Below are positions 2 through 48,625 of a stretch of 48,625 nucleotides of DNA, piece after piece. The stretch lies in NCBI RefSeq assembly GCF_030684675.1, contig NZ_JAUXXZ010000026.1, positions 1 to 48,625 of the forward strand. Reading direction: 5' to 3'. Origin of the DNA: Daejeonella sp. GTDB taxonomy: Bacteria; Bacteroidota; Bacteroidia; Sphingobacteriales; Sphingobacteriaceae. Each line of letters starts with the position of its first letter. The stretch's first letter is position 1. A program made the translations under genes and the position numbers. The notes under the pieces were generated by a model that saw only the letters and a list, made by a program, of their open reading frames with translations, searched no databases and was not told the origin of the DNA.

Positions 2-140
2 AAAGAAAAAAGAAGCAAAAAAGAAAAAAACTGTGGAAATATGGAAAACTCTATCGAGTTTACCACATTCCCACAGTTACAACAATAATAATAACAGGTT
101 TGTATACCTTTTAAAAGTCAACCTTATTCAGGCACGGACA
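2..140. repeat. Left copy of 139-bp inverted repeat that bounds the window
   Basis: Positions 2-140 are the reverse complement of 48487-48625, with one mismatch (T at 112 against 48515). Inside it, 31-76 forms a long imperfect hairpin: 21-nt arms around the loop TATC at about 52-55. The three arm mismatches would be G.U wobbles if the minus strand were transcribed, and the minus strand then runs into a T-rich tract (1-30), so it looks like a terminator or structured RNA read leftwards. A short TAA-type triplet run (about 80-93) follows. The meaning is open: a dispersed repeat on which the assembly broke, or a real inverted pair. Confidence 0.9.
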
Positions 141-189
141 AGTGATTTACTGATAACAGATAACTGACAACAGATAACACATTTACTCG

Positions 190-19662: not shown

Positions 19663-19766
19663 TTTTTAGGTTTTAATCTGGTAGAATGCCTATTCGAAGA
19701 TGAATTGTCATTATCAAGGCTTTTTTCAATCTTGATTATTGCAATCCAGATTGGAATTTTTTCTAA

Positions 19767-19926
19767 TGACCCAGAATGGGTCAAATGTTTATAGCAAAAT
19801 TTCACAAGGAAATCCCGCCCGTCCAGGGCGGGCGCATGTACTTCAAATTATCACATACGACCCCTTCAGGGTCGGGAACCAAGATATTAAGGTGTTTCTA
19901 TAAACATTCGACCACCTTCGGGGTCG
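19767..19926. repeat. Series of GACCC/GGGTC and G/C-rich hairpins
   Basis: Four small hairpins follow in a row within an AT-rich spacer: TGACCC/GGGTCA (19767-19783), CCCGCCC/GGGCGGG (19814-19832), CGACCC/GGGTCG (19858-19874) and CGACC/GGTCG (19909-19926). The last two share flanking CAT and GGGTCGG and look like copies of one unit. They precede the structured element at 19954. They resemble REP-type intergenic palindromes. Confidence 0.75.
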
Positions 19927-19953
19927 GCTGAGCAAGCAATGTTGAACACTGCA

Positions 19954-20154
19954 GGGCTGCAATTCCCAATGAAATACAGCCCCTGGTAAAATAAACCTTG
20001 CCGGAGGAGGTAGCTTCCGGCTAATGGAAATTTGAAATAGAACGCGATTTCATGCCGGATAACTCCGAAGGAAAGGGCTGAGCCAGCCTATAACACACAG
20101 GTATTGATTTACAAAATCAAACCATTGTGGGTCAAGAGCCATACCTGACCAATT
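19954..20154 (+). repeat. Structured repeat element, copy A (candidate noncoding RNA)
   Basis: About 200 nt closely matches 43560-43762 in the same strand sense. Strong pairings are: CCTT (19996-19999) plus CGGAG (20002-20006) with CTCCGAAGG (20063-20071); TCCGGC (20016-20021) with GCCGGA (20054-20059); GAAAT with ATTTC around the invariant loop AGAACGCG; hairpin GGCTG-AGC-CAGCC (20076-20088); and CAGGTAT (20098-20104) with ATACCTG (20141-20147). The other copy differs in sequence at several of these sites but still pairs. No open frame is conserved. The class is not recognised; it could be a structured RNA or a small nonautonomous mobile repeat. Confidence 0.7.
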
Positions 20155-20263
20155 AAAACCCTAATATTTAAAATTTTTCTTTTATCGGACTCAAGTTAAA
20201 TCAGGGATTATAGCATGGACAGAACATGGGGTATTCTCTTCCAGACTAATTATTCCAAATTAG

Positions 20264-43380: not shown

Positions 43381-43509
43381 ATAAGGCCGGTACTCATCAG
43401 AAGCTCAATTCATTTAGGGTGAGTTCGTTATAAAATCTTGCTGAGGTAAGTATAAATTGCATAATTTTCTCTTGTTTTATAAAGCAGGGTCTGTGCCTCT
43501 TCGGTTCTG

Positions 43510-43548
43510 CCTTTGCTGGAACGCGCGGCACGCGCGCACCAGCAAAGG
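43510..43548. repeat. Strong GC-rich hairpin (REP-like)
   Basis: CCTTTGCTGG (43510-43519) pairs perfectly with CCAGCAAAGG (43539-43548). Inside it CGCGCG (43522-43527) pairs with CGCGCG (43531-43536) around GCA. Its very high G+C contrasts with the AT-rich surroundings. It lies 12 nt before structured element B; element A is likewise preceded by hairpins. Confidence 0.85.
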
Positions 43549-43559
43549 GTCCTTTTGCC

Positions 43560-43762
43560 GGGCTACCCGTCCCAATGAAAAACAGCAATGGGTAAAATAA
43601 ACCTTGCCGGAGGATGTAGCTTCCCGCTATTGGTAATTTGAAATAGAACGCGATTTCCTACCGGAACTACACCGGAGGAAAGGGCTGAACCAGCCTATAA
43701 CACACAGGTATTGGTTTCCATAATAAAAGTATTTTTGCTCCGGATCCTTATCTGGCCAATTG
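43560..43762 (+). repeat. Structured repeat element, copy B (candidate noncoding RNA)
   Basis: This is the second copy of the element at 19954-20154. Pairings kept or replaced are: CCT-CCGG (43602-43610) with CCGGAGG (43672-43678); TGTAG (43615-43619) with CTACA (43667-43671); TTCC with GGAA; GGTA with TACC; GAAAT with ATTTC around AGAACGCG; GGCTG-AAC-CAGCC (43683-43695); and CAGGTA (43705-43710) with TATCTG (43749-43754), where a G.U pair replaces the G-C of copy A. It ends about 60 nt before rlmF. The 43381-43822 gap holds no gene otherwise. Confidence 0.7.
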
Positions 43763-43822
43763 TAACTGTATTATTTTACCCTTCTTTATATCGAATTCAG
43801 GTTATTTAGATAATTTAGCTGA

Positions 43823-48346: not shown

Positions 48347-48486
48347 TTCAAATGGTTTTATCGTCTAAAAAGAAGGTGCTGAAAATCCTGCAATACAAGT
48401 CTATTGAAAAGAAATTGTATTGGAGGTTTCTATCTTATTTTTTACAGAGTAGTTAGTTGTCTGTTACCTGTTATCAGTTGTCAGCA

Positions 48487-48625
48487 TGTCCGTGCCTGAA
48501 TAAGGTTGACTTTTTAAAGGTATACAAACCTGTTATTATTATTGTTGTAACTGTGGGAATGTGGTAAACTCGATAGAGTTTTCCATATTTCCACAGTTTT
48601 TTTCTTTTTTGCTTCTTTTTTCTTT
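48487..48625. repeat. Right copy of the 139-bp inverted repeat
   Basis: This is the reverse complement of 2-140 with one difference (48515). The hairpin and T-rich tract lie in mirror order, so reading outward each end passes the GTCAAC-type filler, the TAA-type run, the hairpin and the pyrimidine tract. The adjoining 48440-48486 holds GTTATCAGTTGTCAG-type short repeats like those beside the left copy. No gene follows the dehydrogenase start at 48346. Confidence 0.9.

Follow-up and report, generated by a model that had tools for sequence, protein, structure and literature searches.

The repeat that occurs twice in the 48,625-nt stretch of Daejeonella DNA analysed here (the window) is best explained as a unit of the Flavo-1 superfamily that is carried by a MITE, is selected in place and may have a role at transcript ends, a combined reading to which we assign a probability of about 0.6. 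The parts of this reading differ in firmness: identity, carriage and selection, taken together, are very likely correct, and the function at transcript ends is a best guess that we put forward tentatively from sequence data. In the genus, the Flavo-1-superfamily unit rides, usually as an inverted pair, in an IS982-type MITE with 7-bp duplications. The plus-strand unit stays under purifying selection even at loci where the terminal inverted repeats (TIRs) have decayed, whereas the partner unit and the TIRs drift. An earlier note on this DNA, which saw in the repeat a two-copy structured element and a candidate undescribed RNA, is partly supported as a whole.

Copy number and transposon anatomy

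A repeat search of the window returned two ungapped blocks in register, 19950-20059 with 43556-43665 (110 nt, 85%) and 20062-20169 with 43669-43776 (108 nt, 79%), and copy A and copy B match over about 210 nt at 79-85%. The earlier note had reported a same-sense match of about 200 nt with invariant blocks, and both the match and the quoted blocks are present; the repeat is real, and the match is far above chance. It is not a two-copy repeat: a search with a 211-nt stretch found at least 40 copies in the same genome at E ≤ 0.001 (53 candidates, 40 of them scored), the scored copies being 79-89% identical to the query, with the query itself excluded. Copies are present in 11 of 20 genomes of the genus; seven genomes have at least 37 scored copies (the best 38 per genome were scored), four have 1-5 and the remaining nine are without any. 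The contig itself is bounded by a 170-nt inverted repeat with 94% complementarity (window 2-171 and 48456-48625), a sign that the assembly may have stopped at a repeated element.

Alignment of 40 oriented loci shows a full-length element of about 450 nt with TIRs ACSTGAGTTCGATATAA. The 211-nt stretch is its 3' part, so that what had been taken for the whole element is just a portion of it, and copy B keeps both ends (Table 1). With one mismatch allowed, the TIR core has 14+18 matches in the window's own genome versus 1+1 for the reversed pattern. For the 45 copies with both ends, the 7-bp flanks agree at a mean of 4.51 of 7 positions versus 3.61 in shuffled flanks (z 6.4, higher than all 2000 shuffles), and flank lengths of 5, 6, 8 and 9 give z values of only -0.3 to 0.9, as for a 7-bp target duplication. 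The 7-mers flanking copy B, TCATTTA and TATTTAG, form no clean duplication.

Near-identical TIRs, ACCTGAGTTCGATTAAT or ACGTGAGTTCGGGATAA, are found at both ends of 9 of 30 IS982 loci of the same bacterial family, and five more have one clear end. The exact TIR core adjoins an IS982 fragment in genome G013 (L080), and intact IS982 genes are present in G013 and G019 of the genus; a search of the window's own genome found no complete IS982 gene, the single match scoring 21.1 bits against a cut-off of 130. Because the element has IS982-like TIRs and a 7-bp target duplication and is without a transposase, we classify it as a non-autonomous IS982-type MITE. It resembles IS982 insertion sequences and MITEs in its TIRs and its TA-rich target duplication, but differs in having no transposase and in its cargo, a pair of Flavo-1-like units. 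The earlier suggestion of a mobile-element RNA therefore holds for the mobile part, the unit lying inside such a MITE, while action as RNA is a candidate role. No transposase is present at the lone-TIR loci L072, L075 and L077, for which ORFs were listed, and an autonomous element around lone TIRs was rejected on these three, the 17 others of the 20 loci having been scanned for motifs alone. In genome G006, TGAGTTCGATATTA, which differs from the TIR by one letter, occurs on its own at many sites, and this suggests a second MITE family with related ends there.

The full-length element consists of two inverted copies of a 160-nt folded unit with their 3' ends outward, the left one diverged. Units were located with covariance model R1, built from 36 copies, and with its successor R2, built from 46 units; R2 finds both units, for example, in L231 (428-587 on the plus strand, 149.7 bits; 281-440 on the minus strand, 83.1 bits) and in L011 (1503-1662 plus, 159.9 bits; 1354-1515 minus, 62.3 bits). 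In copy A a single plus-strand unit is left, its TIR decayed and its 5' half, with the left partner, replaced by other palindromes; this replacement is common to G018, and the left part is kept in G006, G016 and G019. In copy B both TIRs are still present, the left unit survives as a remnant, and a GC-rich palindrome lies in the middle.

Several further repeats lie in or beside these copies. The palindrome at the centre of copy B (window 43510-43548) reads CCTTTGCTGG...CCAGCAAAGG, and similar GCGCGC-rich centres are seen in L019, L025, L033, L036 and L038. At the place of copy A's left unit, window 19761-19930 holds a different palindromic repeat with matches at several places in G014 (32 there in all) and also in G013 and G019. 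The copy A locus of G016 and G019 (L057 and L150) carries an insert of about 200 nt within the element's 5' part, bounded by AAACCACATA...TATGTGGTTAAA, that looks like another small mobile repeat. Two other candidate features were dropped: a closing helix P1 pairing GGAAAGCA at the element's 5' end with TGCTTTCC at its 3' end, as a second unit, on the opposite strand, makes up the 5' part, and a mini-ORF ATGAAA(A/T)ACAGCnnCGGGTAA, the last codons of which vary freely among copies.

Table 1. Features of the two window copies. Copy A (L001) and copy B (L022) are themselves among the sequences behind R1, the ancestor of R2.
Feature	Position	Strand	Basis
Copy A folded unit (Flavo-1-like), plus-strand copy	19952..20110	+	R2 match 139.4 bits, E 7.9e-33
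Copy A outer helix 5' strand, CCTT-G-CC with an internal G.A mismatch	19996..20002	+	covariation, homologous columns
Copy A outer helix 3' strand, GG-A-AAGG	20070..20076	+	covariation as for 5' strand
Copy A main helix 5' strand GGAGGTAGCTTCCGGC	20006..20021	+	covariation, broad-alignment columns 55-56 and 65-70; genus pair 72-120
Copy A main helix 3' strand GCCGGATAACTCC (the family form, GCCGGAACTACTCC, is longer)	20054..20066	+	
Copy A 3' hairpin GCCTATAACACACAGGT	20086..20102	+	weak support: across genera 60.7% of cells pair
Copy A right TIR remnant, TTATCGGACTCAAGT on + strand	20182..20196	-	alignment of copies
Copy B whole element, TIR to TIR, 386 nt	43417..43802	+	fuzzy TIR search (L022)
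Copy B left TIR GGGTGAGTTCGTTATAA	43417..43433	+	TIR core at 43420-43433
Copy B right TIR, TTATATCGAATTCAGGT on + strand	43786..43802	-	TIR core at 43786-43799
Copy B remnant of inverted unit	43475..43509	-	HMM match of the element's left part, L022 1348-1458 = window 43403-43513
Copy B folded unit, plus-strand copy	43558..43717	+	R2 match 140.5 bits, E 4e-33

The folded unit and its link to Flavo-1

The alignments support one long hairpin, predicted to consist of an outer helix CCUU-G.A-CC, an internal loop, a main helix and a variable apical part. In the main helix GGAGGTAGCTTCCGGC pairs with GCCGGAACTACTCC, and copy A is without part of the CTAC arm (GCCGGATAACTCC). Within the genus, where 116 of 120 aligned copies cover the core, columns 72 and 120 are T-A in 54 copies, G-C in 51 and mismatched in 11 of 116, giving E=0 under an R-scape-like null and 0.08-0.12 under a null that keeps column rates. 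Most other helix positions hardly vary within the genus and are hence uninformative, and genus-only covariation appears to come down to this one strong pair. A first reading of the 72-120 covariation as kissing loops was dropped, as the alignment fold places the pair in one long helix.

A broader alignment of 70 units across genera was fitted to the structure, which favours the structure, and in it 83.5% of cells pair versus 59.5% when shuffled, with 510 double-change cells versus 177.7 shuffled and 61-137 slid. Under two tree-based nulls, 13 and 12 pairs covary at E ≤ 0.05, of which 10 and 9 fall within the proposed 30-pair structure; three covarying pairs outside it extend the outer helix and include an A.G to G.A exchange. 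The covarying outer-helix columns are 47-124, 48-123 (under one null alone), 49-122 (the A.G to G.A exchange), 50-121 and 51-120. This compensatory change across genera bears out the conserved fold that had been proposed, with 12-13 covarying pairs at that scale against one strong pair within the genus. The individual helices fared less evenly. In the first, CCTT/AAGG is re-paired in relatives as CCGG/CCGG, CCTG/CAGG or CCCG/CGGG, but the CGGAG/CTCCG register is not supported, column 63 being G 83, A 20, T 7 and C 3 opposite a nearly fixed partner column. At the outer position of the CAGGT helix, pairing within the genus remains standard (AT 49, GT 49 and GC 8 of 116), but among the 70 units from several genera just 60.7% of the helix's cells pair. 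Both flanking hairpins are weak across genera (75% paired on the 5' side, 60.7% on the 3' side), and the 5' hairpin, PB, was discarded: at about 75% paired, it has no covariation within the genus and its changes look unconstrained.

Relatives of the unit extend well beyond the genus. A covariance-model search of family genomes gave R1 matches in 27 of 151, and a second look found them in 16 of 21 chosen genomes. At the level of the order, 123 of 300 genomes have R2 matches, and all 123 belong to the window's family (8 of 17 genera). Among 395 genomes of the phylum there are 25 with matches: six from the window's family, 18 from g29, a genus of family f4, and one from g61 in f3. These family, order and phylum samples overlap, and the copy numbers are lower bounds, the best 19, 11 and 8 scored candidates per genome, respectively, having been taken under strict filters. 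A DNA pattern for the 3' motif matched 30 stretches, 29 of them from Pedobacter, and 27 of the 30 have an R2 match; the same pattern matched no viral contigs. At L385 2216-3530, a locus of Pedobacter zeae, inverted unit pairs are arrayed in tandem in an intergenic region, each repeat measuring about 295 nt.

When the window was compared with Rfam, tRNA alone matched; neither copy reaches the cut-off of Flavo-1 (RF01705; 42 bits), and a lax scan of copy A (L001) and three sister copies gave no Flavo-1 match. Outside the family, the R2 match at 16 of 20 loci coincides in strand and position with a Flavo-1 match of 49.7-81 bits, even though no Flavo-1 sequences from other families went into R2; at L447 a further, seventeenth Flavo-1 match (1951-2051) has no R2 counterpart. 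Intermediates were found in g14, g19 and the window's genus, where five of eight further loci (L332, L327, L431, L349 and L335) match Flavo-1 at 42 bits or more, L335 coming from G008, which belongs to the same genus as the window. Eight other distant loci, put through a lax scan earlier, yielded one sub-threshold match of 24.5 bits, to the minus-strand unit of L322. Because R2 hits coincide with Flavo-1 elsewhere and the window copies lie below the cut-off, the unit is homologous to Flavo-1, yet not a member by Rfam's test. The Rfam comparison is thus negative for the window copies and positive for their homologues, and the description of the repeat as undescribed has to be given up in view of the link through intermediates.

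The unit and Flavo-1 have the same internally looped hairpin, with the internal-loop pattern CCCGAU-G-AGCG on one side and CG-A-AGCGGGA on the other, the R2 and Flavo-1 matches coincide, and the outer and main helices covary. Like Flavo-1, the unit is standalone, occurs in Bacteroidetes and has no assigned function. It differs in being about twice as long (160 vs 76 positions), in its weaker flanking hairpins, in its conserved flanks (GTAAAATAAA before and ACACAGGTATTGCTTT after), and in being carried by a MITE in at least 40 copies, of which those in the window score below 42 bits. Flavo-1 was described by Weinberg et al. 2010 (PMC2864571), and the portions of the Flavo-1 literature available to us mention neither a function nor a link to mobile elements. 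Pedo-repair RNA (RF01715), a candidate RNA of Pedobacter, gave no match in the window or the scanned locus sets at the thresholds used. Our verdict is that the repeat is an extended, mobile-borne variant of Flavo-1 under selection.

Selection in place after insertion

Orthologous copies at the same locus diverge in a pattern set by the column. With column classes taken from 85 other copies, 14 ortholog pairs differ at 11/695, 59/830, 79/445 and 85/276 positions from the most to the least conserved class, and the six pairs that have lost their TIRs differ at 4/299 positions in the most conserved versus 47/120 in the least conserved columns. Summed by region over the same 14 pairs, divergence is 0.093 in the core, 0.216 in the outer part and 0.317 in the TIR; L001/L222, L001/L231 and L022/L249 were excluded from these sums so that each locus counts once. 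Four pairs taken alone run contrary to this trend, three being about equal (L002/L191, L004/L176 and L023/L184) and one reversed, with the core faster (L038/L204). Pairs whose link seemed due to other repeats or to a single short match in the flank were left out, for example L019/L205, L025/L205 and L027/L175, and likewise L036/L181, L030/L194, L034/L193 and L009/L232. Fitch counts among 40 full-length copies, averaged over 20-column blocks, show that columns change 1.2-2.4 times in the most conserved stretches of the plus-strand unit, versus 3.8-5.6 times for the left unit and 5.5-9.2 for the TIRs.

The copy A locus lies upstream of rplU (Pfam PF00829) in six genomes, and six others have a short gap without the element. 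Across six species the TIR and outer parts at this locus are scrambled, with the unit still standing. At the rplU locus copy A precedes a TATATTTG box, which we take to be a promoter motif. The interleaving of conserved and variable columns speaks against gene conversion as the source of the pattern. From these comparisons we conclude that the unit has been subject to purifying selection after insertion; the element, being kept by selection, probably brings the cell some benefit.

Placement and a possible role at transcript ends

Placement within the genus was assessed for the 99 of 100 loci with a usable copy, which form 70 clusters, two of them without a gene call on one side. Of the 68 classifiable clusters, 35 lie between convergent genes versus 6 of 69 background gaps; the others are tandem sense (18), tandem antisense (11) or divergent (4), and the background comprises 49 tandem gaps of both kinds and 14 divergent ones. 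No orientation bias to genes was found in the genus (tandem sense 18 vs antisense 11, p 0.26). Outside the MITE genus, where 7 of 113 blocks overlapping an ORF call and others without a gene call on one side were left out, we found neither convergent enrichment (14/77 and 3/18 vs 19/93 in the background) nor an orientation bias (single units in tandem gaps 20 sense and 20 antisense; 4 and 8 in families f4/f3). A sense-only 3' UTR element was rejected, as orientation is unbiased. Because no orientation bias towards genes was found, the function is one that we infer. One asymmetry among single units outside the MITE genus, noticed after the fact, is that a promoter-like box pair separates the unit from 13 of 39 gene starts that face its 3' side versus 1 of 45 that face its 5' side (Fisher 1.7e-4). 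As a lead, the unit may stop sense transcription, the genes beyond it needing their own promoter.

The route that we propose would start with an IS982-type transposase acting in trans, which would have mobilised the element, and the element would have come to lie mainly at gene ends and in gaps between convergent genes. Some of the insertions would then have been retained with the unit transcribed within 3' or intergenic RNA, where it could fold into the long internally looped hairpin and be bound by a conserved cellular partner acting on transcript ends, through insulation, termination or stability. In the part of the F. psychrophilum study available to us, Flavo-1 hits are said to fall without distinction on the sense or the antisense strand of transcribed regions, with many located outside such regions (PMC9723704), a pattern that weighs against a simple RNA role.

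The main rival, which we regard as unlikely, holds that it is the DNA of the unit that folds and acts, as a single-stranded hairpin or a cruciform recognised by a DNA enzyme, in the manner of REP/BIME or attC sequences. Inverted pairs, tandem arrays and the lack of orientation are the behaviour of such repeats, and inversion is seen in 45 of 57 neighbouring unit pairs outside the MITE genus, the 3' ends pointing outward in 27 and inward in 18; many of these pairs belong to tandem arrays and are not independent. That Flavo-1 hits are not tied to transcripts, as far as the accessible part of PMC9723704 goes, also fits folded DNA, as does the modest balance of helix changes within the genus, 20 to G.U versus 11 to A.C (p 0.15). 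Against slid pairs, however, which hold 25 G.U and 80 A.C, the G.U excess is larger, helices 2-4 of the broad set hold 32 G.U and 13 A.C cells, and one of the two inverted units suffices. Nor are Y1 transposase genes linked to the unit: just one of the 30 scanned Y1 loci has a convincing unit nearby (25.7 bits), and RAYT/REP mobilisation was rejected on this count of one in 30 above 20 bits, the 30 being the loci returned of a longer match list. REP and BIME sequences of the GTAG and CGTC families, as presented in the part of PMC3733652 available, share with the unit its extragenic location, inverted dimers, tandem clusters and many copies, and GT pairing in REP stems is noted there. REPs measure 20-40 bp according to the same portion of that source, whereas the unit here is about 160 nt, has no Y1/RAYT link in the 30 loci and, in this genus, moves inside IS982-type TIRs.

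It is quite improbable that each unit is an independent gene for a trans-acting small RNA. The orientation-free placement would suit such genes, and Rfam files Flavo-1 as 'Gene; sRNA', but single units show no enrichment of promoter boxes on their upstream side (12/85 in sense, 13/85 in antisense), on which ground an independent sRNA with its own promoter was rejected. In addition, the 5' ends of tail-out pairs are -39 to 49 nt apart in 25 of 27 cases, which leaves no room for separate upstream promoters, and 40 near-redundant trans RNAs would not each be retained. A separate RNA class that merely resembles Flavo-1 is very improbable: its appeal lies in window copies that score below the Flavo-1 cut-off and in a unit about twice the length of the Rfam model (160 vs 76 positions), but R2 hits in other families coincide with Flavo-1 at 16 of 20 loci, and intermediates match both models. 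Least credible of all is a plain decaying MITE with the fold as a palindrome by-product, which would account for the TIRs, target duplication, copy number and patchy presence, but which we rejected because in-place selection is strongest in the unit, not in the TIRs, and because covarying homologues exist in genomes without the MITE.

Returning to the Flavo-1-like unit selected in place with a possible role at transcript ends, its meaning lies partly in the history of Flavo-1, which has been in Rfam since 2010 without a function and is now tied to a longer, larger and far more abundant family. Here a DNA transposon carrying a Flavo-1-like unit comes together with column-by-column evidence for selection at single loci, and the role of Flavo-1, as RNA or DNA, can now be tested with conserved and decayed versions at the same site, empty sites and the Pedobacter relatives. 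A wider and more doubtful idea is that Flavo-1-like units are phylum-scale, dispersed, orientation-free folded elements, spread by any available mobile DNA (IS982-type MITEs here, inverted pairs and tandem arrays elsewhere) and domesticated locus by locus as transcript-end or insulator modules. If true, they would constitute a transposon-seeded regulon of cis elements, with dozens of selected insertions per genome.
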